Below, in pieces: positions 22,385 to 64,000 of a DNA stretch of 64,000 nt. The DNA is taken from contig JAODTK010005542.1 of the NCBI GenBank assembly GCA_026419785.1, positions 1 through 64,000 of the forward strand. The letters run 5' to 3'. Every line of letters begins with the position of its first letter. The stretch's first letter is position 1. The position numbers and the translations under genes are program-made. The stretch is from Sclerodactyla briareus (taxonomy: Eukaryota; Echinodermata; Holothuroidea; Dendrochirotida; Sclerodactylidae). The notes beneath the pieces were generated by a model. The model saw only the letters and a program-made list of their open reading frames with translations. It did no database searches and had not been told where the DNA came from.

Positions 22385-22612
22385 GTGTCAACTCGCGTAA
22401 AGACGACGCATCGTTGTGTGAACAACTCGCCACCATGGACGACGCATCATAACGCGTCGTGTCATTGCGTTATAGGTCTCAATTTGCCCACTTACTCTGA
22501 GTACGCTGCTCCATTTTCTAGGAGAACATTGACTGTTTCTCATTTACTAGGACGACGCATCGTCGTGTCATAAAAAGCAAGCGCATTCATCGTGTTCATA
22601 GACGCCGAATCG
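22385..22612 (+). repeat. GACGACGCATCGTCGTGTCA subrepeats, left arm
   Basis: Irregularly spaced copies of GACGACGCATCRT...CGTGTCAT, each partly self-complementary (GACGACGCATCGTCG), occur at about 22,400, 22,440, 22,550 and 22,590. The right arm has the reverse complement at 26,035-26,270. Confidence 0.7.
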
Positions 22613-23550
22613 ACGTCATTGTTCGTTTGCTAGGGGAAGTGACACTGCTCACTGCTCAATTTGTTTGAGATTTTGACTGAATAATCTGATAGTAGAAATA
22701 GACAAGGTGTCTTTTTCTGGAGTTCGTCTCTGCCGTAGTTATTCAGGAAATAGCGTATGTGTGTCAAAACGGGGAAGAGTCGGAGCTGCTGGGGTGTATG
22801 CTCGATTAAGTCTCGGCAGATCAGTCAATTAAGGCTGTCGTGCTTCAATATATATGACGAAATTCCATTAGTGAAATCACTGTCAGCCGTGGCAGTAACA
22901 ATTCCTATAAAAATCCCCACGCTAGCTATATTGCCTTGACGATAGGCTAATAACAAATTACCCACGATAATCATTCCAGCTAGAAAAAAAAAAAAAAAGC
23001 ATGGTGTCGCACAGACTCGGGGAATCCGTAAATTAGTCGTAGGCGGGTCGTGGGTGAGCACCGATGCGATGATATCGCTTGTTGGGGGTATTTGATGGTT
23101 TGTAGGATGTTTCTTCTTGTCGTTTTTCTCTCAAACCATGAGGCTTCGCAGCAGTTGCGCGCGTTTGTCGGCAGCCTGTGATGCACCAATGCGCAAAAAC
23201 GTATAAGGATAGTTGCAAGGGGGGATAAAGGTAAAGAGTACTTAATATATACTCGTATAGCTAACAACTCGGAAAAAGGACAGAGAAAATCACATTCTCC
23301 CCATACCATATTAATTTATCACTCAATTATCCACAATGTTAAAATCGATAGGCCCCAAGATAAAGTAAAAGATGGACTGGGGAAATGAAAACAGGAAAAG
23401 GATAATACTTGCGGACACATGCAACATCAATCACATATTGGAGGAATAATGAGTGACGACAGGAATTTCGGAAAGTACTAGTGGGTCTCTTCATCCAGTT
23501 TATATACGGAAGCTATTAAAACTATTCAAAGTCCGTTTTATATGGATTAG

Positions 23551-23960
23551 TCAATATGAGTGAAACATGCGTTTTCAGCGTATCGTCAGCTACCCTCAAT
23601 CATCAGTTATTTACAAGTCTGAATAAGTAAGTCATCATTTCGTCTGACATTAGTCCTTTTGCGCCTAACAATCCGGCGGAAGTCGCTTAGTGAAACTCGA
23701 TGGATTTCACTAAAGAGCTCCATAGTTCTCTTTCCGACTCATCCTTCGCTACTGGGGTCTTGCCTTACTGGACTGTATTCAGTATCAGTCTCCTCTGCAC
23801 CAGCTGACTCTCATAATCTGAACACTCTTCACTAACAGACGCAACGTACCATCCGATGCGTGTTTCATTATCTGATACATATTCATCACTCGATCGCCGA
23901 CCATTTGAATAGCAATTCTAGGTTCCTTCTCTTTCTCTAGGACTGAAGATCGCATCTACA
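23551..23960 (-). pseudogene. Acidic reading frame at the inner end of the left arm
   Basis: On the minus strand, reading outward from the spacer, one frame gives RRSSDEYVSDNETRIG then ASVSEECSDYES. After a one-base shift it continues as EETDTEYSPV and DPSSEG, then RRIVRRKRTNVRRND. The right arm encodes the same acidic protein (DYEASAG, EQSEEDPSSEEEADREDT). Acidic, Ser-rich N-termini followed by a basic patch are common in transposase ORFs, but no catalytic domain is visible. Translation is broken by frame shifts. It could be the remnant of the element's own gene or a captured host fragment. Confidence 0.35.
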
Positions 23961-24760: not shown

Positions 24761-25074
24761 TCGGATGTGACGATGAGTCTGTTAGTGAAGGGGTTCAGAT
24801 TATGAAGCGTCAGCTGGTTGAAGGGAGACTGATACGAAAGAGCAGTCAGAGGAAGACCCCAGTAGCGAAGAGGAGGCGGATAGAGAAGACACGATGGAGC
24901 TCTTTAGTGGAAAATCCATCGGAGTTTCACTAAGATACTCCTCCGAGGGAAGTGTGAAGCGCAAAAAGGAAGATGCAGACGAAATGGATGGAACTATAAT
25001 CAGACTTTAAATTAACTGATGATGAGGGTGCTGCTGACGATGACGCTGAAACGCATGGGTTTACGCCATATTGA
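24761..25074 (+). pseudogene. Acidic reading frame at the inner end of the right arm
   Basis: Plus strand, reading outward. The frame is open from 24,822 to 25,010: it starts RETDTKEQSEEDPSSEEEA, then MELFSGKSIGVSLR, then SVKRKKEDADEMDG. It continues after a one-base shift as FKLTDDEGAADDDAETHG to a TGA at 25,072-25,074. An in-frame TGA at 24,819-24,821 separates it from DYEASAG. Strongly acidic with one Lys/Arg patch. The mirrored copy at 23,551-23,960 (minus) keeps the same acidic composition, which supports past coding. No known catalytic domain. Confidence 0.35.
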
Positions 25075-26034
25075 ATAATCCCTAGTAACACGGACTTGAC
25101 ATAGGTTTAATACTTCCCGTTTAAGTATAAATGATGAGAGACACAATAGTACAGTCGAAAATTCCTGTCGTAACCTCATGATTCCCTAGTATGTGATTGA
25201 CTGTGATGTGTCGCCCGGAGTATCCATTTCACTGATTATTCCCAAATCCATATTGACGTATCTTGGATTTTATCGATTTTATACATTGTGAGAATGAGTG
25301 ATAAATTAATATGGATATGGAGACGTAATTTTCTGTCCATATCGAATTTGTTAGTCTATACAGTATAGATTAAGTGGTAACATGTTACCTTTAGTCACCT
25401 CTTGAAACATATCCTATCGTTTTCGAGTTGTGCCAGCAACGAGGCTGGGGCTGCGAAAAAAGCGCGCGCAACTGCTCCGAAGCTGCGTCGGTGCCGAGAA
25501 AAACGAAGAAGAAAGAAGAAACCATCCTACAACCATCAAATACCCCAACATAGCGATATATCGCAGACGGTGCTCACCATACCCGCCTCGAATAATTTAA
25601 AGGAGTTCCACGAGTCGTGCAACACCAAGCTATTTTTTTTCTAGCTGGAAATGATGAGTATGTGTAGGTAAGTTGCTATGTTAGCTTAATTCAAGCAATT
25701 ATATAGCTAGTTTGGGTGGGTTAGAGGGTTTATAGCGAAGAGTTACGGCCCGCGACAGTGAGTCAATAATGGGCATTGCTGTTGCATAGATATTTGAAAG
25801 CACGACCAGCCTTTAATTGACTGACTATGCCGAGGGACGTAACGGAGCATTACACCCAAGCAAAGATTCGACACTAATTGCCCCGTTTTGACACAACAGA
25901 CGACTATTTCCTGAATAAACTACGCGGAAGAATACGAAAATCCAGAAAAAGACACATTGTCATATTATCTATTCAGTCCAAAATCTCAAAAAATTGAGAA
26001 GGGTAGAGCAGTTGTAATCCGAGCAAAAGAACAA

Positions 26035-26270
26035 TTGCGTCGATGCGTCGTCTATGACCGATGATGCGTCTAGTTTATGACACGACGATGCGTGTCTAGT
26101 AAATTGAGAATAAAGGGCAAAAGTGATCCGAGAAAATGAGCAGCCGTACTCATAGTAAAGATGGCAAATTGAGAATATAACGCAGGACAAGCCGATGATG
26201 CGTCGTCATGTGTCGAGTTTTTCAAACGATTGCGTCGTCATATGACGCGAGTTGACAGCAAAGGTGCGTC
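26035..26270 (-). repeat. GACGACGCATCGTCGTGTCA subrepeats, right arm
   Basis: Copies of GATGCGTCGTC and TGACACGACGATGCG, the reverse complement of the left-arm array, with differing spacing and several indels. Confidence 0.7.
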
Positions 26271-26759
26271 GCAAAATACCGAGACGTGGAAAGGAGGGCC
26301 GACGTTGATTGGCACAGAAGAAAAACACGATTACTAACATGTATTGTACGGTAGACGGAAAACCAATCATCCTTCAAATTAATTCCAATCTTACACTTTT
26401 TATTCCGACTAGGTAGGAGAACATATTTTTTTTATTACTATTTAAGTTCTGTTCGATGGCGTCATGCACTTATATTGTTTGTTGCCCCAAAACATGCATT
26501 CCACATTTTGTCTGAGGGGGTTGAGTTCAATATTGGTTCCCAGATACAATGGTGTGTGTCATGTTTTAAAGACTTTTCACTCCCCCCATACCCCCCGCCC
26601 AAACGAGCGTTGAAAATGGTCGGTTCGAGAAGTCGGACGATGAGCAGTATGTCACTTGTAGAGTGAGTATTAAAACGGGCAGTGTGAGTATCAAAATCAA
26701 AATGAGTCAAATGAGCAATCAGGCAGGTATGATATGAATAAAATTGAAGGGGGGCCCGG

Positions 26760-27020
26760 GGCCAGGAGCAGTGTGCTCAGCACAGAATGAGAGGAATGAG
26801 ATGTATGTTCTGAATTAAAGGAGCGAAGGAGCACCGTGCTCAACATAAAAAAAAAAAAAAAAAAAAGAGCAGTGATGCTCTGATAAATGAGCGAAGGAGC
26901 AGCTGCTCAAAAAACAAAAACAAAAATGAGCCAGTGGCTCTGAATAAACTGAGCGAAGGAGCAGCGTGCTCAAAACAAAAAATGAGCAGGGTGCTCTAAA
27001 ATGAGCGAATGAGCGGTTAC
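26760..27020 (-). repeat. GAGCA/TGCTC tandem subrepeats, right arm
   Basis: At least five units of GAGCGAAGGAGCA(g)CGTGCTC plus an A-rich linker (AAAACAAAAATGAGC), mirror of 21,640-21,920. One linker has expanded to about 20 A near 26,849. Confidence 0.75.
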
Positions 27021-28500
27021 CGATGCTTCGGGGTTTAAAAGGGGCAGATGCGGCAATCGTGATCCACTGTAGTTGCTGGGAAACGTTCGAGGCATACGAC
27101 CACTATTCCGTTTTAATGGTTATCAACACGTAAATCAGATTCATGGACATACCGTGCCGGTGTGAATCGGACGCGCACAGTACGATGACACTTCCAGGGG
27201 TGGTTCTTATGATGAGGCCAGGTTTATCCATTTGCTTTATAAGGATTAAGTTAGTGGAAAATAGTAGCAAATAGTGAAAACTATGCGGTGTTAACGTTTA
27301 TTTAGCCAATTGACCCAAAATAATAAAGCTTGTACGTCTCCCTCTCACCTCAGTAGGCACATCACATATCTAATAACGAATCCACTCCACGTCTTTGCTT
27401 AGCGAGTAATAAAATTGTAATTCATTGACTTCTTCCTGCTGGTTTCTGGGGGGAATACCCAAAATATAAATATTGGATTAGATTCAAGACTATTCCTTTA
27501 TATAGACTCGATCCTGATATTTCGTCGGTTTGACTAACTTATACAGTTCTCCAGGCATTGTAATGACCAAAGAGTAACATTTTGAACCAATGGCCAATAA
27601 TATGCGCAAAACACACCAAGGTAATACTTGTTCTATATTCAGTTGTTCTATTTATTTATTCAATCATTTCTGAATCCCTTGATAAATTACTTTAGGTTGT
27701 AGCAAATTATGGGACATGAACTTGGGCGCGACCCTATAATTTATCCAGCTTCAATTAACGGCTTGCAGACTGACAAATTCCTCAGGAAAATGACTCGTAT
27801 CTATAAAGGTATATTCATTCTTCGAATGTGCCAGCACCTCTCAACGGGAACACGCAAACCGGCTAATTTATGGTTCCTAAAGCGCAACAGGGACGGGTAG
27901 TAAATAAATTGAACGTACATAAACGAGGATGGACCCCGTTACAATAGAGGAGCCCCGCTCCGCGTTTTTTTTTTTAACCCCAAATCATAGATATAGCTCA
28001 AAACCGTTACCACTCAAGATTGATTAGAAACAAAGGGTACCTCTACGTGTACCTGCTGTGCAGAACGGTAAGACCTTACAACTTGTACCCGACGCTGTGC
28101 AATGACAATCCTACACCTCCCCTAAGGGTATGTACCGTTGACTCAGCCTTCGTATAAACGTTGATGAGGACCCTTACACCGAGCAGGCTATATTGAGGGG
28201 AACTGCATTTCTGTTCGGGAGGGGTACCATCACCAACTTAGGTAGAGGGCACCTTAATCATGCGGGGAGGGGGACAATCCAATGGTGGGCACAACATTCG
28301 GGAACTGAACCACGAAGCTGTAAGCACCGTATCGGGAATGGGGAGCTACCACGATCATAACAGTGGGACGTCGCGTCTCCATCACTGAGGGCCGGGCAAC
28401 ATGCACGTATTGAATGTGGAGGCAGGGGGGTACAATGAAAATGTGGTTAGGCGCAGATCGACCCCCCCGCCCCCCAGACTCCACCTGCATGATAGATAAT

Positions 28501-32814: not shown

Positions 32815-33881
32815 TACAGACAGTATCAAGATCGTTCATTGCCCTCCGGATCGACTATTACACTGGGAGACGTCCAGTGAACTTGTGCCCGTTTTGTGAA
32901 TCTACCACAGCCTCTATTCCGGTCGTGGTACGTGGCGGGCCTCTCCATACGTGATTCCTTGTTGTAGGTTCCTCTAGAACGAATACTTGGTCCGTTCTCC
33001 AAGATGCGTGTTGAGTCTTCTGTTTCGCAGTCTGGGTTAATTTTTTCACATAGGTCCCCATCTTCCCACTGGACTAATCATTCTTTTGCTCCGAAGAGAT
33101 CGCTGTTCTGTTTTTTTTCGTGTCTGAAAGACCCTTCTCCATATTCTTGGCTCCTGCGTTCTCCGAGATCTACACATTTCATATCACTGCCCTATATCCA
33201 ATGTCCTAACGGCAGTTACTGCCAGCTGATACACGGTTACTTCCCTTTTCTGTGGTACGTCTCCAGCACTTTCGTCTATGGGATGTACCATTCCTCATTG
33301 TCTGCAGATAGATGCGGGTGTCCGGGCGGCACAACTACCCCGTCTTTATCTCCAGAACATCTGGATGGAGGATCGTTCCCTGCACTGGCATGATCGTGTT
33401 GATCCAATAATCCTTGGTTGTCGGAAGGATTGTACTTTCTCTTCTGCGCCGAAAATAATAGCATCAAGAAAATTGTAGCAAGAACGATCGACAGGAACAC
33501 CACGATGATTACAGTCAAGAATAGTTTTCTTGGGATTCTCTCCACCGTCACAGCTGTGGAGCTTTATTCCGTTACTGGTCGCACATTCGTTCCTGTCTCC
33601 TCTGTAGGAGGTCGTCGGAGTACAGGGTGTTAAGTACGCTGTGTTGATCGTTACAATTTTACCTGGGCTGATGTTTTGGAAAATAGAAGGTCAGAATATC
33701 ACTGATGACTGACCGATGGTTATTCTATCAAATATCATTAGTTAGAGGATATCCTGTAGAACTCGAACTCAGTCTCCTCTTGAAAGTACAATGTTAAAGA
33801 TAGGTCATCGTTTTGTTACCACATGAAATGGTGCAACTGGTACTGCGATTCTGTTCCACGGCCGGCATGGCCAAGGTTCAC
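32815..33881 (-). CDS. Receptor family copy A: TM domain and tyrosine-motif cytoplasmic tail (last exon)
   Basis: The exon starts after a 3' splice site (CTTCTCTTCCACAG), conserved in copies B and C. First comes a short ectodomain related to the Cys-containing segment of copy B. Then, in the best frame (33,551 downward), a transmembrane helix LFLTVIIVVFLSIVLATIFL is followed by the stop-transfer SAQKRK. The tail keeps pieces of the shared motifs in shifting frames: ITYGEARH (ITIM-like position), GIEAVVDSQNGHKFTGRLPV and a degraded NERS-DTV end. Several single-base indels break the frame. Upstream exon candidates for this gene lie at 36.2 and 36.7 kb. Cell-surface signalling receptor is inferred; the family is not recognised. 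Confidence 0.55.
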
Positions 33882-33899: not shown

Positions 33900-34265
33900 T
33901 CGATTGGCCTATAATCATGGGTGGCAATTCCGAAGGGAGGTAAGTCAGGAGAAAATAGTAGTCTGACAGTAGGAGTGTGTGTCTGGTGTGTGCGTGCGTG
34001 TGGTGTGTGTGTGCGTGTGTGAGCGCGAGGGCGCGCGTGTGGTGTGTGTATGTGCGTGGTAACCGATACCTCGACCCAACCTGCGATGGAAAAGCTCACA
34101 ACGGTATGTGTGTTCTCATTATGGCTAACATGAAGACCAATTGTTTGGGGGTAAGGTTAAAGATCATCTGAGGTAACAGAGGTCAGTCCAAAAACGCTTT
34201 AAACATGAGAGGTTAAGAATGGTTGACATGATCTGGTTGGAATTTGGCATTAGCTTTCTCTTGTG
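33900..34265. repeat. Intron segment shared with copy B, including a GT-rich microsatellite
   Basis: Directly upstream (minus sense) of copy A. Homologous to 57,150-57,380: shared AGTCCAAAAAxGCTT, GTTGAxATGATCxGGTTGGA. A (GT)n/(GTGC)n tract at about 33,976-34,060 is much longer here than the (GT) run at 57,228-57,246. The duplication therefore extends beyond the exon. Confidence 0.6.
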
Positions 34266-35084: not shown

Positions 35085-35700
35085 GTGGGTGAAAACATCC
35101 AATTTATAGGTGTGAAATTTCACTCACCGTGTAACCAGTCTGGGTTTACTAGAGAGAAGCGGATGCAGGGCTGTACCCTAGGCGGGTTCAAACCTGGTAC
35201 AAATCAAACTGCAATTGCTTGGGCAGCTATGGACCATAGCGGCCAAAATTGTTCAAATAAAATGAATGAGAACAGGGTAGGAAAAGATCAAGGCTAACAA
35301 AGCGGCCGCAAAAATGAGAATTTGAGATTTTTACATCCTTGCCGCCACATTCAGCATTCGATTCTAGGGAATCTATAGCTCACAAGAACCAACTAGTAAA
35401 ACTATGCAAATGTGCGGTTTTTGGTTGCTTGATACGCTGCAAATCCTCCATGATAGAGGTTATAACAACACAGGCCAGTGTGGAAGGATGGCAGAATTTA
35501 TTCCTAAAAGGATGAATGGTATGAAGGGGTGCTGTCGATGTGGAAACTTTCTCCCAAGGTGTTTGTATCTTTTCTATAGTAGGGGTCCCAGGGACGCTGC
35601 AAAAGTATTCCATTTCAAAAAAAGTAATGAATTGTTTACCAAGTCTTCAACTTGGCTTTACTACAAGAGTTAAAGTATTTAATACTTTATTTTATTTTAT
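35085..35700 (-). mobile_element. Decayed LINE fragment, duplicate of 62,830-63,690
   Basis: Matches the segment next to receptor copy C: GTGTAACCAGTCTGGGT, CCGCCACATTC..CGATTCTAGGGAAT, CACCAAGTCTTCAAC. On the minus strand a LEYFCSV / AASLGPLL-type reading is the decayed counterpart of the clearer ECCAAVWDPYYKK in the other copy. Confidence 0.45.
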
Positions 35701-36178
35701 AATCTAATACTGTTATCTGTCCCAACGCACGTTGCATTGACTTGCATCCATTTTCTGCTCCAGGCCATATCAATATAGGGAAACCCTGGTATCTTTTTCT
35801 CGACTCATTAAATTTAAATATTAGTTATTATAAAATTAATAATATGATTTAAAAAGTTGTGTTGAAGATGGGGGCTCGTCTCCCAAACATTCATTAAGAT
35901 CTTATGAACTGAGTCGCCATTCTGTTCACGTGACTTCCAACCCACCAATTGATATTGTTTCTGTTGTCGAATACGGTAGTTATATAATAAATAATAAAAT
36001 TTGTATAGCGCAGATCCAACAGTGACTGTCATGCGCTTTACGGGTGTGACCGTAAAAACAACCAATCAATAATAAGAAATAGGATAGAGCAAAGGTACCT
36101 TAAAGAAAAAAGAAAGTATTTAGACAACACCTGAATCGATCGAGGGAATCCGATGATCTGGGATCAGTGGGGAGCGAT

Positions 36179-36669: not shown

Positions 36670-36854
36670 TTACTTACCCAAGTTTTAGTGCAAACGTTTG
36701 ACCATGACATCACCGTTCGACAGGAGTATTGAAAACTGAAAGTTTCATTGCCTAACCTGTCACGTGGTGCTGGTTCGACATAGTGTTGTGAACGTATGGA
36801 AAGAATTGCCAAAATAAACGTAGCAGATACTCGATACTCGATTTCACGGATCAA
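36670..36854 (-). CDS. Candidate exon with consensus splice donor, upstream of copy A
   Basis: Minus strand, open frame reading VEPAPRDRLGNETFSFQYSC and then VMSWSNVCTKTW, ending exactly at a near-perfect donor (TGG|GTAAGTA). It has two cysteines, one NET sequon and a preceding hydrophobic stretch (VSATFILAILSI) but no ATG. The block just downstream (36,480-36,590) is duplicated at 63,870-63,970, next to copy C, so the matching exon of copy C would fall just outside the window. Could be an ectodomain exon of the receptor family; not proven. Confidence 0.3.
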
Positions 36855-38528: not shown

Positions 38529-41500
38529 GTAATCTATCGAATTAGTCGATTATTTCTGTGCAGCCCCTACTCCTCTTTCAATCTATTTACACTATCCGTG
38601 TGACAGTATAAAGCCTGTAGAATCCCGGAAAAGTTTGAGGGAAGTTGTTCATAGATATACCCTTGTTACGCGGCGGGAGCCTATAGGGCCGGGGCGTCTT
38701 ATTATAATCAGGGGTTGAGGTCGCAACCATTGTCATCACTTCTATAGTATTGTGGAGAATATTCAAAGGTATTCCCTACATGTACATGTGCCAGGGGCTC
38801 CTACATGCGGTAATCCAGTCCTGCAACCACGCGTCGAAAGTTGGCGGGCGTCTAGAGCAAGTTGGGTGGTGCCACAGAAGAGATTTGGATTATTGGATGA
38901 TGAATAGTTTCACGTTTCATGAATGCCGATGAGATCATGACAACTCGGGAATTGCTCATTGTTTCAGATTTCGATAACGGCAACAAACATACCTGTTTGT
39001 TTCCGTTCCTGATCAAGTCAACTTCCAGATTGAGGGCATAACTGAGGTCAAAACAAAATAAAAGGTCGAAAGACCCCAGAACCACATAGACATCTGTAAA
39101 TTCCGGTCAGGCTTCCAGACCACCCTGTTTCGAAAGAGTGAGCTACGTATGGCATTATGTATGGTCTCTACCTGGATTCAAGGCTCTGTCCCGACCCTTA
39201 TCCAAGGTCCCCCAGGCCATAATACACAAACCGGTGCCAGCACTTTTGTAGGGTTACATATCAACTCCTTTATCTTCGCCAATGACACCGTACACAGTTT
39301 GAATAGAACTCGTTGAAGCAGGGCATGACTGATTCCCCCACAGCGGAGATCAAGGTAATAACAAAAATAACAACACAAACATACTCATTCGTTATTGATC
39401 CACACTATGTGAATTGAAGCTAGATAGGCATATCTTCGATCAGTAAACAACTGTACCTGCAAGGAACAAAATATACTAGGACTCTGTGCTGTAGAAAGCT
39501 GGTTAGTACATCAATCACCATTTGCTGAATATTTTCTCGTCCATTGCCAAAAAAATGTCCACGCCCAAAATGGTTATGGAATGAATATATACAGCCCGTA
39601 TTTACCAAATTAGTAACCAAAAATCGTAGAGCTTGCAGTAACCCACTTCGAGAAAGTATTCTTGCGATAATGGTCAAGGTGGAAGGACCACAGCAAGTGG
39701 AATGAACAATGCACAATCCGTTTTCAATGGTTTTGAATTGCGATGTCGTATAGAAGAAATCCAATCACAGTCGAATGAGTCTCTTGGAATCGAAAACTCG
39801 ATTTTCAATCGGACAACGTCCAAACCACGAAAGTTTAATAAACAAAATAATAGCCACACACAAATACTGCGAAAATTATCTGTTTGTTACCAGATTGTCC
39901 AACCGTGCCGTGAGAAGAAAAAAAACCGCAAACAAATCCATGATTATTCGTACTTTTAGTGAAACTGCTGTTAATGTTGGGCTACTAATAAGCTAAGGGG
40001 TGAGAACGAATGATGATCTCAATTTGTTGACTCACATACTATGCCTATCGATATGTCCGACCGAGTCTTCTGTGCATATACGTTAGCCGTGACGGTATCC
40101 AGATTACTCGGAAGAACAAATTCGAATTCAACGATGACAAGTCCGCTACAAATCTCTACGGCTAGGAACAACAGTGAATGGGCTGGCAAATCGCCTGTTC
40201 ATAGCCATAACAATGCCAAAAATAGCGGCATAAGGTGAAGAGTTGTTGTACTCCTAATAACTGGTTATATCGTGTGTCTACTGCGATGCTGGAAATTTTG
40301 ATTCCTTTGTTGGATATTTTTTAGTGTGTTGTTGTTATCTTCAATTGTCATTCACTACACTACAAATAAATCGAAAGCGAACATTAGGAGAAAACAGCCT
40401 TTGAAAATTCCACTTGCTACAAAACAATTACGGACACACGAAAACACACGTTGACCCAAGTTCTCGGAAATTGAAACCTCAGCCGTTCAGTGACATGCAA
40501 AGAGGCAAAAGGGATTCCTCTAGCTAGGCTGAGATGGCACAGCACCGCCATTCTCTATCGCGAGAAGGTTAATGTTACTGTTACTCGTTAATCGAAAACT
40601 AACAACTGAACTGTTAAATGTTTATCGATTCGGCAACACCTTAAAAAAAGCGCCATAATAGCCTACTATAGGCCTGGTCAATCGAAACCAAGCTTGGAGG
40701 CTCGTGGGATCAAGGTCACAAAGAGAGCTCCGAAAATGGAACTCCGGAAGATTTAGAAACACTTAGGTATTTGGGCAGAAGGCGAAAAATACGGTGGTTT
40801 AGAAGAGGCATTCCCAGGTAGATAGGGGAATATCCTATTCATATGCTATGTAGCACACTGACATACGAGTACGAGACATTCAATTTAGCTGGAACTGGAA
40901 GGAAGTAGAAGAGTATATTGTTGGAAGATACTACTGTACGTCACGCAACATTTTCGGCACATAATCGGTCATTGGATCAATCGGTCAGGGATTTATTATT
41001 TATTATTATAGTAACTATGTGCCCAGCTATTTTGCTAAAATGCTCCGATAATTGTCAAGAACTCGCGGGCAAACAGTTATTCCAGAGTCAAAACGTATCT
41101 CTGATGAATCCTGGAAAATGAACAATCGTTTGGGTTCAGCCAAACAAAAAATCCTGCAACATGCCCTGTGTGTCTGCATGCTCCAGTAAAAAACATTAAT
41201 AATGAAAAGAATCGGATTTGGACGGTTTTTCCAATTTCCTCGAAATAGGGGGGAAATCACTCATAGAACCGGACATGTGTGTGGTTGGTCATTTTTATTG
41301 CATTCGTCTTCTTTAGATGCATTGTGTATTTGTGAATGTCGTTTGTGAATGGGGAAATAATTTCTGCAATAACCGGAAACCTAAATACAGGCGGGACGGG
41401 GAGACTGCCTCAATTTCATTGCGGTAAATCAAATTAGCCCAGGAATTACCGCCAAAAGTAAAGATCCAATAGAAACCTCGGGAGAGAAGAGCCAGAGCTG

Positions 41501-47960: not shown

Positions 47961-49330
47961 TGTCAGCATTAGGCCTGCATATAGGCGAAATTCTGTTAAA
48001 TCTAAAGAATATATGATATCGTATTTGCTATATGCGCTACCCCATTAAATGTGCCAGTAACCGAACTATGCTGTTGTACATTTTCAGTTCTGGGTGTTCT
48101 ATTTGAACAACTTTCTACGGTAATTGTCAAATAATACTGCTGATGTCTAACTCGACAACAAAGCATGTCGCTTTCTGTTTTTGAGCCCTAAAATTTCTCT
48201 TTCTTGTAACCGTTATCTCGATCATTTACCAAATTAACCCGGAAGTGAGACAATGAAGCATGAATCAGTAGCCACTACGTTCTCGCTGACTGAATGTTGA
48301 CCATGTCACATATGACTGACTTAAAAGTTGGGCACGTACCAGGTCCCTCCAAAAAGCTGATAACTTGTGTATCAAATATCTAAATCACATACATTTAACG
48401 ACCTCCAATATAGCCAAGCTATGTTGAATATTATCCGAATTTAGGTCAAAAGTATGCCAAGTTTATTTTCAAGAGCTTTCGGGAAAATCCTTAATTCCAG
48501 TACCCTTCCAAGGACCAAAATACCCATACCTTTTCAGGTATCTATGGAACCTGTTAAAAGTGCTAGGAGTCAGCACTGTTTGTGCCGAGGTACAAACAGC
48601 CTGAAACACTCAGGGAGGGTCATTTCCTGCTATTGCGATAGAGCAGGAGTATTAACCCTTTTTACTTTCTCCCTCGCGCTAACCCAAATCGGCCGGCTTA
48701 ACATTCTTCAATCCCACCCCCCCTCTTCTCAACCTTAAACTTCTTAATACTATTACAGTCTCTATAACTCCCTAATGAGTGATGCCTGAGACTTTCTATT
48801 TGAAAACGCCACCAGTCACTCGATATCCCTGAAAATGTTACTCACCGAACCGGTCTATGTTGTTAGTAAAGTCACTGTGAACTTTGGGCGATCATTTTAT
48901 CTGAGTAACTCTGATATTCACCTCCATCAGGCTTCTGGACTTGATATATCTATGACGGATAGAACAAAAAATTCGTCATGATAGTTCGCTGAATTCTTGT
49001 TGACTAGTGCAGACTGGCTGCACCCTTTAGGATTTTCTGGGAGGTCCGGAAGAATGATTATACGTGATACCTGGTTCAGTTTGGCGGTTAGGTGTGGGGA
49101 GGTGAGGGGGTAATTCGAATGCCCGCAGTTACTGCTCAAGTGATTGCGCGGCAGGTGATGCAGCTAGGTTGTCCCACCCCAGTTCCCCTTTCTCCTCTTA
49201 ATGATGTGATGATGGTGTGATGTATGTTGCATACTAATGTATCAACAAGTAAAATGCGCCATTGTTGTTGCCAGTATATCCTGGCAGCAAGAATGCTACC
49301 ATGACAACCGGGGTATCGCCTCACACCTAA
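47961..49330. other. Stretch with no recognisable gene
   Basis: Open frame of 94 codons at 48,454-48,738 (+) without domain or splice support. Nothing else. Confidence 0.45.
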
Positions 49331-49334
49331 ATCT

Positions 49335-50310
49335 ATCAGATGCATTTTCAACTGCATGCCATGTTGGTATTGGAACTGTACGCTTTAGCTCTGTTCGTAA
49401 ATCAGTACTTTCTTCTTTCTTCTCCGATGATTATGCATACCACAGGGAAAGCCGATAGACACGCCGCGTAAATCAGAATTAATCAATGAGCGCGGGCGTG
49501 GTCCGGCGATGGAGTTGAATTCTCTTTCAACCGGCTGTACAGCATGGTATTCTCATCGAGGATCATCAGGAACGCCACCAACTACATCGCATACGAACAA
49601 TTATGTATATACGACAAGGTGATTAACATATCCAGTTGGGCCGTGGTTCTCGTTCATTTGTGGACGCTTCAGATCATTTAATCTTCATTCAATATTATTT
49701 TAATTCTCTTCGGGTCCATTTTATCTCTGCGGGTTCAGAATAGTGCGGCTCACAAAGCCCGGCCGTATTGATCGTGAATGAGCACCGATGATATTTCGCC
49801 TTCTCTCCTCAACTAGATCCGTGTCGCCCCCTTCTATTGGGGGACATCATGAACTCCAGATTCGAACCAATTTCTCGGAACCTAACGAGTTTAAAAACCA
49901 TTCCAAAACTGACGCCTCACAGACGAACGACCGAGACTTCGGAACGGAGTAACCTATAAGTCGGTCCTACCGATGTTAAAGTTCCATTCAATCTTTGGAT
50001 TATTCGAGAATTTAGGCATCAATGATTTTGAAAATGAATGCAATCGATCGAACGCATCATGTGCAAGAAGAACTTTCAACCACAGTTAACAGCACTCAAA
50101 TCATTTCTATACTTGATCATTCGCGAATTTTGAAAGAAGCCGGGCTGGCCGCAACGAATTATATGTTTTCACTTACAGGGACCTATTCCTCGAAATACTT
50201 ACCTAATACTACTGTTCCAGCGGATTTTTTTTTTTGTAATTTTCATATCAGTCAATACAATTGGTTACTACAGTATGTTTGGTGGCTTCGTGGCTGGAAA
50301 GGAGGGACAT
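49335..50310. repeat. Segmental duplicate of 59,625-60,510
   Basis: Shared in order: TTTTCAACTGCATxxxATGTTG, CGCTTTAGCT, GGTATTCTCATCGAG, ACAAGGTGATTAACATATCCAGTTG, GGGTCCATTTTAT, CGTGAATGAGCACCG, CCTTCTCTCCTC, AACGCATCAT. Both copies contain, on the minus strand, a partly conserved reading (VLIHD...KMD), which may be coding, but frame breaks make this uncertain. Confidence 0.65.
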
Positions 50311-50319
50311 AAATCGAAT

Positions 50320-50652
50320 CAGATGGCGTTTCATCAGTTGCTTCGAACCTACTCACTGTCTGCGACTGTTTATTCACACTTGGGAAAATGTTTCATATCC
50401 AGACACTTGACTGGTTAGCAAGGCGATGGGGGTCAAGCGAAGATCTCAGCGCGCGGACGGAAAATTCAGGGTGAGTAGAATAGAAGCAAAAGGTATTCAG
50501 GAGGCAAGACATTATACACAGGACCAAACAATGAACGAAGATGAACGCTTTGAAACAGGCGGCCAGTTCAGATCATGCAGCAAACCGGTTGAACCAGTTC
50601 TACGACCAATACTGAGAACAAGTCTAGCAGCTCAATTTTGCAGTCACTGTAG
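50320..50652 (+). CDS. Duplicated membrane-protein fragment, copy II, upstream exon
   Basis: Counterpart of 14,890-15,260. The frame from 50,426 is open to a consensus 5' splice site (CACTGTAG|GTAAGCC, exon end 50,652). It reads ERFETGGQFRSCSKPVEPVL and ends AAQFCSHCR, giving two CxxC-type cysteine pairs (CSKP...CSHC region). The start of the exon is not defined. The preserved donor and the longer open frame suggest this copy is closer to intact than copy I. Family not recognised. Confidence 0.4.
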
Positions 50653-50805
50653 GTAAGCCAGATCTTAGATGACATGTAAGTAAGAAGACCATTGCAATTT
50701 CTAGCCGTGACGTGATGAGAGCCCGAACGGCGTGGTGAGAAGTGATAGCATCAATGTACTGACGGATGCCGCCCTAAATCTCTTATATGTTGGTTTATAT
50801 TCTAG

Positions 50806-50934
50806 CGACGAGTCACCTATGTATTTTAACGTCCCTATAGAGTTGAAAGACCACTCCGAGTTTCTAAGTGAATCCAATGCCACTTCTATAATACCTTTGG
50901 CTTCTGGATTCCTGCTGTTTTTAATCTTTTAACA
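50806..50934 (+). CDS. Duplicated membrane-protein fragment, copy II, transmembrane exon
   Basis: Follows a strong 3' splice site (TATGTTGGTTTATATTCTAG, boundary 50,805) about 150 bp after the donor of the preceding exon. That gives a short intron with a polypyrimidine tract. Encodes DESPMYFNVPIELKDHSEFL, an NAT sequon, then SIIPLASGFLLFLIF and a TAA. This looks like the end of an ectodomain with a C-terminal hydrophobic anchor (GPI signal or TM). In copy I the hydrophobic run is longer and followed by a basic tail, so the stop here may result from an indel. Confidence 0.45.
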
Positions 50935-51590
50935 GCAATTAGCTCTAAACCACCTCAAAAATTAGTTATACCAGCCGAAAGCATCATTAGAAGCAGCCAA
51001 CTGACGCGGGAAAAGTTAGAATCGCGGGTCCGGGAACCCCTGGTTTTCTGTATTCCTGCTATTTGTATTATAATCATTAACCGTAACGCCGGCGAGTTGG
51101 AAATGAAAGCAGCGAGAATGTGTTGAAAGGGGCTTTATACTGACCTCGGTATTTTACTTTCGACTTGTATGAAACCTAGTGTTAACGGGAACTCCACCCC
51201 CCCCCCCCCCAAACCGCACGAGACATGTCCCCTACTTGTCTGCATCTTTTCAAACCATTTCCATCCTGCCTTTGGCTATTGCGCCATACCACAGCGCTTA
51301 TTGTGCACGTGCCATCTTAGCGTGACATTGAGAATCCTCCTTTATTGTGGACGTAAAGCGACGACCCAGCCTGCTATTCATCACCGACTAACACGATAAC
51401 AATGTTATACAGTCCAACTATGACTGTTATCTGATCACGTCAGTCGAAATTGTAGGCATGGCCTCGTCGAACACACAAAATCCTTCATAATCTGTTCACC
51501 CCTTCCCCTTTGCAAACTGACATGTGTAGGGGGTAAACCGCCCACGTTTTATCCCCGCTGTTGATCAATCATAGGAAGAAGTATCTAAAC
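50935..51590. other. Remainder of the copy II segment, then unrecognised sequence
   Basis: Similarity to copy I persists to about 51,100. A poly-C tract at about 51,197-51,210. No further gene. Confidence 0.45.
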
Positions 51591-56044: not shown

Positions 56045-57127
56045 TTACAAGACAGTTTCATAGATACGGTCATTGCCTCCTCCGCCTCGACTATTAAACT
56101 GGAAGTCTTCCAGGGAACTAATGCTCGTTTTGTGGATCTTACCACCGCCTCTATTGACCGTGGTAATTTGGCGGATCTCTCTCATACGTGATTCCTTAGC
56201 CACAGATTTTCCTTCACTCCCGACTTCCATACATGGTCCCGTTCTTCGATATGCTGTTGACTCTTTTGATCTCACAATTGGTGTTGTATTGTTTCAACAT
56301 ATGGCCCCTCTCTTTCCCCACGTCCTGTTTAATTCTTATTGTGCCCCGCAGAATCCTCGTTCCGTCTCTCCTTTCGACAGTATCCTCACCCATATTCTGG
56401 CATCCTTGCCTCCTTCGCGAGTTGCACAATCCCATATTTCCGCCTATAGGCCAATGTCTTGCCGCAAGTGACCCCATGATGCGCAGTACTCCCCTGTGTC
56501 GTCCCTTGCAACTTCGTATATGCTTGGCTCATTCCTCCTTGTCTGCGATTGATGTGGGTGTCTATCTAAGGGCGTCACATTAACCACGCCTCCGTCCTCT
56601 TTAAGATCCTGATTCTGGAGCGTTCCCTTCACTGCATATATCGGTTTGATCCAATCCTCCGGAAGAATGTAACTCTATTTTCATGTGCCGAAATATTATA
56701 AGGAAAAAATTGTAGCAAGAACGATCGACATAGACACAACGATGATACAGTCATAATCTTTTTTTCTGGATTCTCTCCCACCGTCACAGTTGTGGAGCTT
56801 TCTTCACTTACTGTTTCCGCATTCGTTCCTGCCTCCTCCGTAGGAATTGTCTTCCGGAGTACTGACGTTAATGTACGGCTGTTGATCGTAAACTTCACCT
56901 GTGCTTGTAGTTTGGACATAGACGGTCGATACACTGATGACTTACCCGCTGGCTTCATTCTTATCAAAATATCATTAGTTGAGGCTCTCCTTTAGAACCT
57001 ACGAACTCATCTCCTCCTTGAAGTACAATTTTAAAGATATGGTACATCCTGCTTCGTTACCATATGAAATGGTGCAATTGGTACTACGGCGATTCTGTCC
57101 ATTCACGGCCGCTGCCAAGGTTTCACA
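56045..57127 (-). CDS. Receptor family copy B: Cys ectodomain, stalk, TM, tyrosine-motif tail (last exon)
   Basis: Begins after a conserved 3' splice site (CTTTCTTTCCACAG). The first frame reads CETLAAAVNGQNRRSTNCTI and SYGNEAGCTISLKLYF, with three cysteines and an NCT sequon. A shifted frame gives KSSVYRPSMSKLQAQVKF and the Ser/Thr/Glu-rich stalk TEEAGTNAETVSEESSTTV. A second shift gives the TM core IIVVSMSIVLATIFSL. The tail has DWIKPIYAV, EPSIYEV, RKYGIVQL, ITYE at the ITIM-like position, and ends GGNDRIYETVL-stop (TAA at 56,045-56,047). The terminal TVL fits a class I PDZ ligand. About 360 codons in one exon. At least four indels break the frame. Signalling through tyrosine phosphorylation is inferred from the motifs; the family is not recognised. 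Confidence 0.6.
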
Positions 57128-57378
57128 CTGTGGAAAGAAAGAAGTTATTCCGATTAGGCCTATAATCATTGGCGGCATTTTTTTTCCCTAATGGAGGTTA
57201 AGTCAGAGAAATATATGTTCCATGACATGTGTGTGTGTGTTTGTGTTCCCCATCATGATACGTGAAGCCCATTGTTCGGAGATAAGGCTAAGGTCAACAG
57301 AGGCTAGTCCAAAAATGCTTCCAAACATGATAGTAAGAATGGTTGATATGATCAGGTTGGAATTTAGTGCTAGCATCC

Positions 57379-58184: not shown

Positions 58185-59060
58185 GCATTTCGAATAGCCC
58201 GGGGAATCACTTTGTAAGGGTGGCAGCCCCTGGGATTTTAGGCTTGGAGAGGGCCACTAAACTCCTTGAGGTGTCCTGGTTCTCCTATCTTCATCAGCAC
58301 CCTGAAACACTCAAAATAACCTCATCCCGGGCTATCTATAATTACCACTTGGATTGGCTTCATGTTTGGCTTCGACTGTTTAAGGTGACAATGAATGGTA
58401 AATACGGCTCAGCTCCGTGAGGATTTGGAGTCTACCCAAATCCGCAGAGGCCAATGTTTGAACATCGCTGTGCTGAGGACCAAGGCTACCAACATGCAGG
58501 CTTGTGTGTTAAATCTTTAAGTGAGAGTGTCTCTAATGACCCCTGGGGACGGAAGTAAGTCAACATCATGGCTTTGACATCCCCAGTTTTCGTCATAACG
58601 TTGGTGTGGAGGCTGTAGTTCGGAACACTCCCCTTTAGAAACCTGGTAACCAAAGGATGGGTTCCGAAAGTAAAGTTGTCCAGCTTAATTGCTGGTGACA
58701 AAGCTGATCTGGCCGTGGACTCGAGCCCCTGATTTCGAGTGGGGAAAACCTGACTGTAATGTCTTGGTAGCAAAATTTTGTCCACTTGTTTAGGTGTACC
58801 TGGTATTGCTTTTTGTGGCTTGTCTCCACGATGCCATAAATTTTCTTGCGTCTTGTCCATGTATTCCTCTCTGGTCCGAGGGCTCTCCGGAATAAAGAGG
58901 CCATTACTAGTGTTAGTTTCCCTGTTAAAGAGTGTACCTGGTCTTGGCCTGGTATAATGAAGGGTTGCCGCACTCTGCCGGAAAAACCTGGCGTCTCCAT
59001 GGTCATGGCCAAAATGCTCTGGAGTACCACGTTGCGTCGGCCAGTCGAAATATACTATGC
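58185..59060 (-). mobile_element. DIRS/Ngaro-like retroelement: end of pol and tyrosine recombinase
   Basis: Minus strand. From 59,060 down: GHDHGDARFFRQSAATL and PGTLFN (end of the RT/RNase H protein), then ENLWHRGDKPQKAIP and KQVDKILLPRHYSQVF. Next come TARSALSPAIKLDNFTFGTH, PLVTRFLKGS and ETLSLKDLTHK, the N-terminal SAM-like part of YR-retroelement recombinases. This enzyme class joins the circular cDNA to the genome. Further on are SAQRCSN and FECFRVLMK, in the region that leads to the first catalytic Arg in this family. The C-terminal HxxR and Tyr box was not found, so the copy is truncated or too decayed. Two or more frame shifts. The subclass (DIRS versus Ngaro) cannot be settled here. 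Confidence 0.7.
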
Positions 59061-59159
59061 CCCTTGCTGTCGTCCCTTTCGTATCTTTTGAACTTCTATT
59101 CTAACTATTGTGAAGTTTGCTGTCTGCGCTGGAGCCTGCTAAGGTTTGGTATACGATAG

Positions 59160-59600
59160 AATGTATGGGGCCATCCCATTACCCCAAACGTGGGGCTTTT
59201 CCCAAAATACCTTGATGCAAAACGAGGGAGCGACAGCGGAGCGCGCAGAGAAACATCAGGCTGCCGATGTTCAATCCATATATTTGGGCACAAATTCCGG
59301 CGATTCAAGACTTTCTCCCCTTATGCAACTAGTCGATATTTTGATCACATTTTCATTCTCGTTCTCTAAGTTCCCCGGAACAGATATTCCTGCTTGTTTC
59401 CCCTCCGCCTGCCTACAATTAGCAGTTTCTTTTTTTTTTGCGCATGATACTTTTTAAGACACGGTAGACAAACAGACGCCTTATTTCGCGGCGTAAACGC
59501 GGAGTATTTTCACGGATACTGATGATGAATATGTCAAAATGCACCCTCTTCGAGTTCACATGTTCAACATTACCCTCATTGACAACATGGAAATCGCCTC
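59160..59600 (+). repeat. tRNA-derived SINE-like repeat copy 2 and duplicated flank
   Basis: AGCGGAGCGCGCAGAGAAAC, then ATCAGGCTGCCGATGTTCAATCC (one base lost from the B box), then TTTGGGCACAAATTCCGGCGAT match 46,471-46,580. The following GATACTGATGATGAAT...CGAGTTCACATGTTCAACA matches 46,950-47,000. Confidence 0.5.
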
Positions 59601-59624
59601 AACAACCAAACCTATCCTAATGCT

Positions 59625-60510
59625 TTTCAACTGCATCATGTTGTAGTGGAACTGTTTTATTGGAACACGCTTTAGCTTTTTTTCGCAGATCAAGTACTTT
59701 CTCTTTCTTCTTCATGCCGATGAGTTATAACCGCAATCCAATCAAGCCGATACCACGTCACGTAATCAGAATTATAATCAATGGGACCGTGCGTGATCCG
59801 CGATCGGGTTGACTCCTCTTTCACCGCTGTGACAGCAGGGGTATTCTCATCGAGTGCATCAGAAACATTCACCAACTACATATCCTAGGGAACAATAACC
59901 TACATGACAAGGTGAATAGACATATCCAGTTGATCTGTGGGTCCCGTTCATTTAATGGATGCTTCCAGTCATCTTAATCTTTCCATTCCAATTTTATTTT
60001 ATATTCTGCGGTCCATTTTATTTTTCTGTGCAGGTTCCAGAAATAGTGAGGCTCCATCAAGTGGACCCCTGGTCTTATTATCGTGAATGAGCACCGCGAT
60101 ATCTCGCCTTCTCTCCTCGACTAGTGACGTGTTATGCCCCTTTCGGAAGGACATCATAGACTCAAATTCTCGGAATTTCGCCAGCACCTATAGGAGTGTG
60201 AAGATCATGTCCAAAGTGACGGCTCACAGAAGACCGACGGACTTTGGAAAAAAGTAAACTAACATTCGGTTCTTACTCAATATTAAAGTTCAATTCCGGC
60301 CTTTGAATTAATTCGAGATAATAAAAATCAATCATTTTATTCAAAATGAATTCCATCGTTCGAACGCATCATCTACACCCCAGAAGAAAGATGATGCCAA
60401 GTTACAAGCCCTCAAATACATTTTCTTAGGTTTTTGTAAAAATTATATCAGTCCCCCCCCCCCCACCTGCGAATTTTGAGAAAAGCCGGGTGACTTCGTG
60501 GCTGGAAGGA
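59625..60510 (-). repeat. Segmental duplicate of 49,335-50,310, possible minus-strand coding
   Basis: See the other copy for shared words. Minus strand frame 60,187-59,999 reads FREFESMMSFRKGHNTSLVE, then RRRDIAVLIHDNKTRGPLDG, and ends QKNKMDRR. The 49 kb copy keeps VLIHD and KMD in the same places. A second frame at 59,875-59,690 is open for 61 codons. If coding, it is an unrecognised family. The minus orientation is the same as the receptor exons. Confidence 0.4.
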
Positions 60511-60681: not shown

Positions 60682-61045
60682 TCGTTACAGGTTTGTCAGT
60701 GAAGTTGTAAGTTTGACTTGTGTAATGAGTGTTGGTCCATACATTGGATACTTATCATGTTGTTGGAGAATTAGTACTATTTATCATTGTACCATTCACC
60801 TTGCATTCGTCACATGGCCCCTCGATACCAATTATATATTGACTGGTACCCCGAATGACAGTGTGGTCGTATCCAAAGTACGAACTGGAACTACTTTCTC
60901 AGAGACACAAAAAGATATTTTTGCGTTGTTCAAGCACTTATCTATGGGTAACCCATTGAAGCGATTTTATGAGAGGAGCTGCAATCCAAAGTCGTTGCAA
61001 TCTTCCAAACTCTCATTCGAACCACCAGTGATCGGTAATAATTAA
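60682..61045 (+). CDS. Candidate terminal exon, ~120 codons, unrecognised family
   Basis: The longest clean protein-like frame near the receptors. It follows a 3' splice site (ATCATTCTTTCTGTAG, boundary 60,681; an alternative CGTTACAG lies 9 bases on) and stays open to TAA at 61,043-61,045. It reads RYRFVSEVVSLTCVMSVG, then a moderately hydrophobic stretch with several cysteines and aromatics (YIGYLSCCWR, YHCTIHLAF), then NYILTGTPNDSVVVSKVRTG, KDIFALFKHLSMGNPLKRFY and SKLSFEPPVIGNN. Its stop overlaps the stop of receptor copy C on the other strand (TTA at 61,042-61,044), a tail-to-tail arrangement. No duplicate was seen next to copies A or B. Could be chance, but length and composition make coding plausible. 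Confidence 0.4.
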
Positions 61046-61963
61046 CAAGACAATTTCAATATAATACGGTCATTGCTCTCCCTCCTCCGGCTCAACTATT
61101 AAACTGGAAGTCCTTCCAGTGAACTTAGCCCTTTTTGGGATTTACCACCAGCCTCTATTCCGTCCATGGTAATGTGGCGGACCTCTTCATATGTGATTTT
61201 CCTTTGTCGTGGGTTCCTCTCGACGTACCACTTGGTCCCGTTCTCCAAGGTGCGTATTGAATCTTTTGTCTTACAATCGTTGTTGTATTTTTCCAATAGG
61301 TCGCTATCATTCCCCCTTATATAATCATTCTTTTTTTTGCTCCGAAGTCGCCTGGTTTCTGTCTCCGGTTTCGGAAGTACCCTTCTCCATATTATTGACA
61401 CCCTTGTCTTCTGTCGAGAGTTCCACGAATTCATATCTCCGCCTATTTCCAGTGTTCCTTCCGGCAGTTGACTCCCAGTGAGACAGATTACCTCCCCCCT
61501 GTGTCGTCTCCTGCAACTTTTTGTATACAGGATTGTGTGCCCTTCCTCCTGGTCTGCGATTGATGTGAGTGTGTATCTTCAAAAGACGCTTGATGCTGAG
61601 CGTTCTCTGCACTGGCAATATATCGGGTTGATCCAATCCTCCTTGTCTTTGGAAGAAATGTAACTTTCTTTTTCCATGTGCTGAAATCTTATCAGGAAAT
61701 TGTAGCAGCAACACGAACCGACAATGGCCCCCACGAAAATTACATTCAAACTCGTTTATCTGGATACTCTCTTGCCGTCACAGTTGTGAGCTTTCGTCGT
61801 CACTTACTGTTAATTCTTCGGTCTAACCTACGAACTTATATTCCTCTTGAAAGTACAATGTTGAAGGATAAGGTACAATCTGCTCCGTCACCACTGAATG
61901 GTGCAATTGGTAATGCGATTCTGTTCCATCCACGGCCGACGTGTCTAGACTTACAACAACAAA
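61042..61963 (-). CDS. Receptor family copy C: TM and best-preserved tyrosine-motif tail (last exon)
   Basis: Starts after a conserved 3' splice site (TTATTCTTCCCACAG). The Cys ectodomain segment is represented by GDGADCTLSFNIVLSRG in one frame and YPSTLYFQEE in another; the stalk is shortened relative to B. TM core VIFVGAIVGS with the LLLQF of the adjacent frame. The tail is the clearest of the three: EDWINPIYCQ (an NPxY motif), HNPVYKKLQETTQGG (a second NPxY), RRRYEFVELSTEDKG, then after one shift RRLRSKKKNDYIRG, DSIRTLENGTKWYVERNPR, KITYEEVRHITMDGIEAGGK (ITIM-like I-x-Y-x-x-V), SSLEGLPV, and an NDRI-Y-E-I-V-L end with two small insertions before TAA. Phosphotyrosine and PTB/SH2 docking is inferred. 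About 300 codons in one exon. Confidence 0.6.
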
Positions 61964-62830
61964 CCTGTGGGAAGAATAATGTGTTCCGATTAGATTATGA
62001 GTCGGCAATATCAGGGCGACTTTTCGAAGTCAATTTTGTTGGCGACAAAAGTCTCCCCTTCTATTTAAGGATTGTTTAAAAATCTAACACTTTGAAGGTA
62101 CAGTAAGGCCTTCTTTCAGTTGCCCGAGATTTGGTGCTAATTCCTTATTAACTTATGAGCAACCTGCAGCAGTTGCAGCATTTTGTGTCGTTAGCTTCCA
62201 TGCCAAGCTCAGACAATGAGAATGCAATTCCATTTCCAGGACCCATCTCTTTTTTGTCTGTGAAACCGGATACTGGTTGAGCATTTGGTTTCATGCATTT
62301 CCGTAACCCCGTTAGCTGTTAACTATTTAGATATTTGCTTCTATATCAATGTCCACTATGAAAGCCACACATGGCCTAGCCTTTGGGTGGTCTCGCCTAA
62401 GGCCGCATACACGCTCGAACAATGCCTCTAGTATACCCACCGGTATGTCAGACTAGCTTGAGGTACTATGCGAGCTTGAGCATAACATCCTCCGCAATAC
62501 CCAGTCCATGTAATTTCTTTATTGGGTCTCTGAGTTTCTCCAGCAAGCTGAAAAGTGTTTAGGCTAATTAGTACCCAATCGCGCAGTTCATAGCTTAACT
62601 GATTTAGACATATCAAGAAGAACGGATCACCTGGCATGCCGACGTAATACGATTTCGTCCTTTTGGATTAGACCAAATGGCCTAGATTCCGGCGGGAGCG
62701 CCCTGGAACTTACTGGTCTTCCTGTTTCTGCCAATAGCTAATAATGTCCACTATAGCCTCCGGTTGCAGCAGGTTGATAGATGAGAGAAAAAAAAAATGC
62801 ATCCGAGTTCTGTAGTTAAACATCCAGACT
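61964..62830. other. Presumed intron or intergenic sequence upstream of copy C
   Basis: No exon recognised. Homology to the copy A flank resumes at about 62,830. Confidence 0.45.
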
Positions 62831-63690
62831 AGGTGTGGAATCTGACAGTGTAACCAAACTGGGTCACTGGAGATGCGGGATGCAGCATGCACCATAAATG
62901 GCGGTTCCGCGATTAAAGACATATACAATGAGCTTACACTTGGTTAACAGGATGAACGGACAAGAGCCATGTGCCATGACAATCGAGCTCGCGTTACTCG
63001 ATTTCATGATCACGCTTTACAATCAAGTGTGCCAAAGCGGCATTAGTGCGAGAGCTAGATTTCACGAAGTTCACCTCTTCATATTTTTTTGTTTGCGGAT
63101 TTTACAGTCTACCGCCACATCGCATCCGAATCTAGGGAATTCTAGCTTTACACAAATTACTCTGTGAGACTACTGCATAATGCCTTTGTTTTGCTCCTGC
63201 ATGATACTGTTTATCTGCAACCATCTCCATGATAGCGCTTTCATGCACGCCAGTGTGGAAGAATGGCAAATTAAATTTTAAAATGTGCCTGCGATATCAG
63301 ACTCGCCAGGAACAGTGACCAAATGGAAGGGGAGGAAGGGATAGGGAAGGGAGGGGTAGTTCACTTTCTAGAAGCCTAGGATACAACTGAGTACTGATAG
63401 CACATTCTATTATAAAGATTATGTGATAAGAATGGGTTTACTGCCTTGGTATCTGTCGAGTAGTTGGCGTTGTCGGTAGCTTGATATCCGTTTAGTAGAA
63501 GTATGATAAAGAAAGCCTAAGCACGTGTACAACATTGTGATTGCACGTCGTTGGAATTTCTCCGAAAGGATCCTATCTTTTTTATAGTAGGGGTCCCAGA
63601 CAGCTGCACAGCATTCCATCTTCGAACAAACTCGATGACTGATCTACCAAGTCTTCAACGAGCTACTACGAGAGTAAGTAGTAATATTAA
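62830..63690 (-). mobile_element. Decayed LINE fragment, duplicate of 35,085-35,700
   Basis: On the minus strand 63,619 down reads ECCAAVWDPYYKKDRILSEK, then FQRRA, and later SYRQRQLLDRYQG. The 'EY..AVWDP....D...LE..QRRA' block is typical of LINE reverse transcriptase C-termini. Farther along a frame gives SSDPVWLHCQIPHLVWMF, also matched in the 35 kb copy. It lies in the same relative place upstream of copy C as the other lies upstream of copy A, so the insertion predates the duplication of the receptor gene. Confidence 0.6.
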
Positions 63691-64000
63691 TTCTATTTGA
63701 TATTACAAATGTATATTGTATTGCATCATAAAAAATGAGGCCAGATGTTGTGAGACAATTTTCCTCTTAGATAAATATAAAATAAATTTGGGCCAGAAAA
63801 TTACTGCTTGCCGTGATGTTATGCAAACGGCAGCGTGTAGTAATTCTATGAGGGCCTTGGAGCGATCCCCATCTTACTGACAGACTGTCTAACGATCTCT
63901 GTCCGGAATGGTAGAATGGCCCAGTGTAGTTAAAAGTTTAACATAAGAACAAATACGGTAAGTTTTCGAATAAGAGTGGCTGTGTGATGACTAGACTTCG
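63691..64000. other. Flank shared with 36,480-36,600
   Basis: 63,888-63,990 (TGTCTAACGATCTCTGTCCGGAAT, GGCCCAGTGTAGTTAAAAG) matches 36,494-36,590. The window ends before the position equivalent to the donor-flanked exon candidate at 36,670-36,854. Confidence 0.5.

Follow-up and report, generated by a model that had tools for sequence, protein, structure and literature searches.

Tandem arrays of single-pass receptor genes evolving by birth and death are familiar from the vertebrate LILR, KIR and FcR-like families. The allorecognition complexes of Hydractinia, Podocoryna and Botryllus are described as containing many duplicated receptor genes, some of them with ITIM or hemITAM tails (PMC12065747, PMC11999971, PMC11067881 and the preprint PMC13119343). 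The Alr genes of Hydractinia are portrayed as lying in clusters and encoding single-pass transmembrane proteins, alongside numerous related models that are suspected pseudogenes (PMC11067881), and the Alr ectodomains as V-set and I-set immunoglobulin (Ig) domains (PMC11999971). FcoR of Botryllus schlosseri is presented as a type I membrane multigene family from a polymorphic locus, with a V-type Ig, a sushi and two C2-type Ig domains followed by long tails with tyrosine motifs, where ITIM or hemITAM are considered possible and splicing can swap the tail motifs (PMC12065747).

Here we describe a receptor-like gene array of Sclerodactyla briareus. The analysed stretch of 64,000 nucleotides (the window) comprises bases 1-64000 of contig C2785 (349,674 bp), which belongs to a 319.5-Mb assembly of 3171 contigs. 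The array resembles the allorecognition complexes in genomic layout and predicted topology, which does not imply membership. Like Alr, the units form a genomic cluster, here ten units on one contig, and appear to encode a signal peptide and a single transmembrane helix, judged from the consensus by hydropathy and reading only; this likeness rests on descriptions of Alr, not on Alr sequences. V-set or I-set Ig domains like those of Alr were not detected in Pfam or PDB with the error-prone consensus. A multigene family with predicted type I topology and a long tail is shared with FcoR, but the same error-prone consensus gave no Ig or sushi match in Pfam. With the LILR, KIR and FcR-like genes, the locus has in common the tandem array of predicted single-pass receptor genes, but no recognisable Ig domain and no ITIM in a supported frame were seen in it.

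The best reading, to which we assign a probability of about 0.6, is that of roughly ten tandem paralogous units of a fast-evolving single-pass receptor family, with frameshifts that are mainly technical. If coding, this would be a birth-and-death receptor cluster without a recognised domain, following the pattern of allorecognition and immune receptor loci. New in this analysis are an upstream exon with a conserved ATG, a middle exon of about 118 bp, and the joining of the consensus exons in phase.

Ten same-strand units on one contig

The initial annotation of the window described three copies, A, B and C, of one receptor family. These copies are homologous minus-strand DNA (pairwise E 1e-64 to 1e-124), with 72% identity between A and B over 1212 columns of the pairwise DNA alignment and 70% for both B/C and A/C, and their shared acceptor, a pyrimidine tract followed by CACAG, sits where it had been placed. 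The homology is real, but the count of three was too low: ten units on the same strand, some of them partial, are spread over about 234 kb of the contig. Their recurring exons are denoted T (upstream), P (middle) and X (the exon to which the originally described copies correspond). The features of the window and its edge are listed below, in window coordinates unless stated otherwise.

38993..39382, minus strand: exon T of gene A, with conserved ATG, signal-peptide-like start, first ectodomain segment and donor CAG/GTATG (profile match 39782-38934, E 3e-153)
36678..36795, minus strand: exon P of gene A, about 118 bp, donor G/GTAAGT (one of nine P copies on the contig)
32818..33881, minus strand: exon X of gene A, with the predicted ectodomain end, stalk, transmembrane helix and tail (copy A of the initial annotation)
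56045..57127, minus strand: exon X of copy B; between it and exon X of gene C, the T and P profiles gave no match
61042..61964, minus strand: exon X of gene C, lacking about 174 alignment columns of the ectodomain
63885..64000, minus strand: exon P region of gene C, crossing the window edge (profile match at contig 64205-63885)
contig 66514-65661, minus strand: exon T of gene C, outside the window (profile match)

Exons were located with nucleotide profiles over contig bases up to 266,800, the last 83 kb being covered by genome searches. The profiles matched 10 X units, 9 P exons and, strongly, 8 T exons; a ninth T match, at contig position 252,930, was weak (E 1e-4). The X units start near 33.9, 57.1, 62.0, 75.0, 108.9, 164.9, 171.7, 191.5, 230.3 and 261.9 kb. 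By position, seven units (A, C, D, G, H, I and J) combine T, P and X, unit I having two T exons. Units B and E have X without T or P; unit F has P and no T, and its X was matched over the first 231 positions only; and the P exon at contig 103,410 is not paired with an X. The X exons of units E and J were matched in pieces. Intron sequence upstream of X is common to A and B (34168-34245 with 57288-57365). Because B and E are reduced to X, F is partial, T is doubled in I and one P exon is devoid of X, the array would seemingly have grown and decayed by unequal crossing-over.

Orphan X exons such as that of B, which lies behind gene C, could alternatively serve as spare tails. The locus would then be an allorecognition-like complex built on a receptor family unrelated to any described, with varying ectodomains and a conserved tail, and one ectodomain could be joined to different signalling tails. 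We regard this arrangement as improbable.

In searches of the 319-Mb assembly, all 17 listed matches to exon X of B lie on C2785 in the minus orientation, and so do all 3 listed matches to exon P, all 6 to exon T and all 14 to the tail protein; among the matches listed, and at the sensitivity used, none falls on another contig. A transposon match, regarded in the initial annotation as fatal to a receptor family, was tested for as dispersed copies, and the confinement of all listed matches to one contig argues against a transposon. That the locus is no gene at all, and instead a non-coding or transposon-derived repeat duplicated together with it, is accordingly hard to credit. The lack of a family match, the modest coding signal and the seemingly retroelement-like fragments between the copies would fit such a repeat, but it accounts poorly for the restriction to one contig and one strand and for three exons with splice signals recurring in several units.

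Exon structure and predicted product

Exon T is found upstream in seven units (eight copies), with the ATG in all eight. The signal-peptide-like stretch of the 8-copy T consensus, MLLLLLLLVSLISAVG, has a hydropathy of 2.41, is judged by hydropathy and reading only, and is read in a frame with 0 stops in 207 codons among the eight copies. The middle exon P, of about 118 bp, is present in eight units; the bases preceding it are GCAG in the consensus of the copies and CCAT in copy A itself. A further segment upstream, S, yielded no convincing exon. The transmembrane helix recognised earlier is borne out: its consensus mean hydropathy of 2.51 is reached by 0.17% of the 11,242 open 19-residue windows of the contig. 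The continuity from helix to tail also holds, copy A staying in one frame from the one into the other.

Judged by eye, the consensus puts the junction of T and P in phase 0 and that of P and X in phase 1; two versions of the P consensus differ by one base at the exon end, and several frame changes within the X and T consensus were bridged manually. Read in this manner, the exons of the consensus fit together in phase to give a predicted protein with a signal peptide, an ectodomain, one transmembrane helix and a tail of about 230 residues. A complete gene would consist of at least three exons, T encoding the signal peptide and the first ectodomain segment, P a short ectodomain segment, and X the remaining ectodomain, the stalk, the helix and the tail. 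Its product would be a type I single-pass receptor of the plasma membrane, whose varying ectodomain might bind some ligand and whose tail may recruit cytoplasmic partners, possibly a PTB-domain protein via an NPVY motif. An immune or self-recognition function is conjecture. The earlier proposal of a duplicating receptor family is supported by the tandem cluster, the exon with the conserved ATG and signal-peptide-like start, the helix and the exons that can be joined in phase, but not in its multi-ITIM tail.

Reading frame of exon X and the tyrosine motifs

Stops were counted in gap-free codons of the copies placed on the 8-copy X consensus, in frames f0, f1 and f2. At the start of X, f0 contains 1 stop in 331 codons versus 14/331 and 15/338 in the other frames; in the helix region (380-464), the counts are 1/176 for f0, 2/178 for f1 and 19/185 for f2; and in the tail (580-1086), f2 stands out with 11/1143, compared to 57/1140 in f0 and 53/1147 in f1. 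The region 470-575 has 5 stops in each frame. Within the tail, the three frames are about equal over 580-700 (3/250, 4/259 and 3/251), and f2 is the most open over 700-800 (2/225 versus 7/224 and 15/218). The substitution test speaks for f2 (synonymous z 2.1, BLOSUM z 2.5) and against f1 (-1.5 and -1.3) over 800-1085, and for f1 (1.8 and 1.4) and against f2 (-1.4 and -1.5) over 640-800; it leans to f1 at the helix (synonymous z 1.7) and favours no frame at the ectodomain start (synonymous z -0.8). The 11 stops of the f2 tail compare with 12.5 expected from the same substitutions placed randomly, that is, there is no depletion. Shuffling produced an open frame as long as the 169 codons of the consensus 12 times in 300 when dinucleotide-type and 12 times in 1000 when by base, and raw contig windows of equal size (n=436) have a 99th percentile of 162 codons for the longest open frame.

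In the initial annotation, the recurrence of motifs at matching positions was taken as the sign of a tyrosine-rich signalling tail. When the tail DNA frames were compared to the other copies with tblastn, the summed bits were 702, 862 and 771 for f0, f1 and f2, and 794, 561 and 793 for the antisense frames. The subject stops (34/1384 in f2, 41/1641 in f1 and 41/1220 in f0; 26/1530, 26/1087 and 33/1440 in antisense) did not single out f2 either. All six frames recur about equally, and therefore the recurrence of peptides follows from DNA identity and is uninformative on coding. More generally, motif recurrence among paralogs is no functional evidence until the reading frame is fixed.

The motifs ITYEEV, RYEFVEL/RKYGIVQL and IYETVL all lie in the stop-rich f1 of the tail and are absent from f2, the end of which reads VYYESVL in the consensus, with final bases that vary in length among the copies. 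In copy C, NPVY belongs to the f2 register; at that place the consensus has HPVYESAGDD and individual copies differ, but the motif falls in the region 580-700 with equally few stops in all frames; NPIY/KPIY fall within 470-575, the region with 5 stops in each frame. Given the f1 position of the first three motifs and the f2 register of NPVY, the ITIM claim was dropped and one possible NPxY in the tail was kept. RYEF (640-800) stays a doubtful case, as the substitution test there leans to f1, its frame. A multi-ITIM tail is not supported, and most of the signalling motifs originally described seem to have arisen from out-of-frame reading of error-rich DNA. The full earlier model, with several ITIM and NPxY motifs signalling in immunity or self-recognition, draws on the tandem cluster, the signal peptide, the transmembrane helix and the design shared by known systems, as well as on the register of NPVY and the f1 lean around RYEF. 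With its main motifs in f1, the 800-1085 substitutions against that frame and the about equal recurrence of peptides in six frames, we give this model little credence.

Frameshifts, selection and decay

In A, B and C alike, all three frames are broken. For the comparison of gap density with divergence, 150 duplicated pairs, each 350 bp or longer, were taken from contig bases 1-264000 after removal of pairs touching a 67-bp array and of overlapping tandem pairs. Across mismatch levels of 8% to 30%, the frequency of gap openings per aligned base holds at about 0.07 (intercept 0.082, 95% CI 0.074-0.089; slope -0.055), and exon pairs (0.068, n=24) do not differ appreciably from the other pairs (0.070, n=126). 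Genuine decay would be expected to bring more gaps at higher divergence; since gap density is flat with mismatch, the frameshifts of all copies look mainly like sequencing or assembly error. An actin gene on contig C1260, the reading of which crosses three frames within about 510 bp, likewise indicates that the assembly carries indel errors, and the alignment of a tandem pair of 2.1 kb at 233.3 and 235.5 kb resembles, by look, uncorrected long reads. Given this constancy of gap density and this error, a frameshift in this contig is not in itself a sign of decay. The noise is uneven, because several exons of actin and HSP70 genes from other contigs have intact frames and a 67-bp tandem array just downstream of exon X of unit I (contig 227,318-228,942) shows about 99% between-unit identity; the clean array is itself a suspected assembly artefact.

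Relative to the consensus, deletions are rarer in exon P (0.042 versus 0.119 in the flanks), in the signal-peptide part of T (0.050 versus 0.092) and in X (0.043 over 900-1086 and 0.067 over 580-1086, versus 0.105), but not in T as a whole (0.089 versus 0.092). Substitutions are fewer than in the flanks for exon P (77/851 versus 225/1834, p 0.015), the start of X (82/1011 versus 93/848, p 0.038) and the last 186 bp of X (p 0.0007), with no significant difference for X 580-1086 as a whole (p 0.12) and no conservation above the flank for exon T (235/2084 versus 308/2616, p 0.61).

For seven exon segments of T, P and X, pooled in frames chosen beforehand by stop counts and reading, the substitution rates at codon positions 1, 2 and 3 are 0.098, 0.088 and 0.109 (p 0.028). 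The BLOSUM similarity of the changes favours the predicted frame (z 1.88, p 0.04; shifted frames, -1.72 and -0.86), and the synonymous excess is not significant (182 versus 173 expected, p 0.2). No significant 3-base periodicity of pairwise mismatches was found, in a test of low power because the gap-free blocks are short. In the dN/dS check suggested at the outset, constraint in the predicted frame points the coding way, but it is weak and masked by sequence noise. Support for coding with fast evolution is modest, and a mixture of live and dead copies is compatible with the data.

A cluster of pseudogenes, in which one or a few genes are live, most copies are dead and drifting, and the frameshifts are real, is unlikely though plausible. 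It would explain the breaks in all frames of A, B and C, the stops that are not depleted relative to neutral placement, the lack of significant periodicity, the exons missing from B, E and F, and an exon T conserved no more than its flank. What it does not predict is a gap density that is flat with divergence and the same in non-exon duplicates, as expected from error, or the deletions below flank level in exon P, the signal-peptide part of T and X, if not in T as a whole.

Searches for relatives

With the error-prone consensus, no Ig or sushi domain was among the Pfam matches listed at E<=10 and nothing passed the cut-off, the lowest E-values, 0.018 and 0.026, belonging to Glycophorin A helix matches. 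No significant match was obtained in PDB with this consensus and the hand readings; P and X as first read by hand gave a putative fimbrial subunit (E 0.016), another weak match was acetyl-CoA synthase (E 0.67), and one search produced no match at all. A PDB match to an antibody chain (E 0.9), suggestive of a V-type Ig domain in exon T, vanished after re-polishing of the consensus, and an Ig strand, as exon P was at first interpreted by hand, was at odds with the stop counts. Viral contigs scanned with the tail peptide gave no confirmed relative.

Repeats and element-like segments around the array

Between the copies lie fragments with the look of retroelements. The translations of 14906-15687, 50320-51082 and 63422-63643 of the window seem similar to the C-terminus of LINE reverse transcriptases, and a candidate exon Q (35541-35701 and 63552-63702) was rejected for the same apparent likeness of its translation to the end of a LINE reverse transcriptase. 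An open frame of 204 residues at 58486-59100 on the minus strand, without a Pfam match at E<=1, presumably resembles the tyrosine recombinase of DIRS-like elements. Several X exons are followed downstream by copies of a segment of about 0.6-1 kb (window 49302-50106 and 59580-60423; contig 72430-73429, and near 189.2 and 223.9 kb).

The window also contains an inverted repeat of 3.7 kb (20212-23856 and 24761-28474; 75% identity, 293 gap openings, spacer of about 0.9 kb), which may reflect either an artefact of fold-back reads or a genuine palindrome, and, at 11252-11874, an array of an approximately 78-bp repeat with 70% matches and 13% indels.
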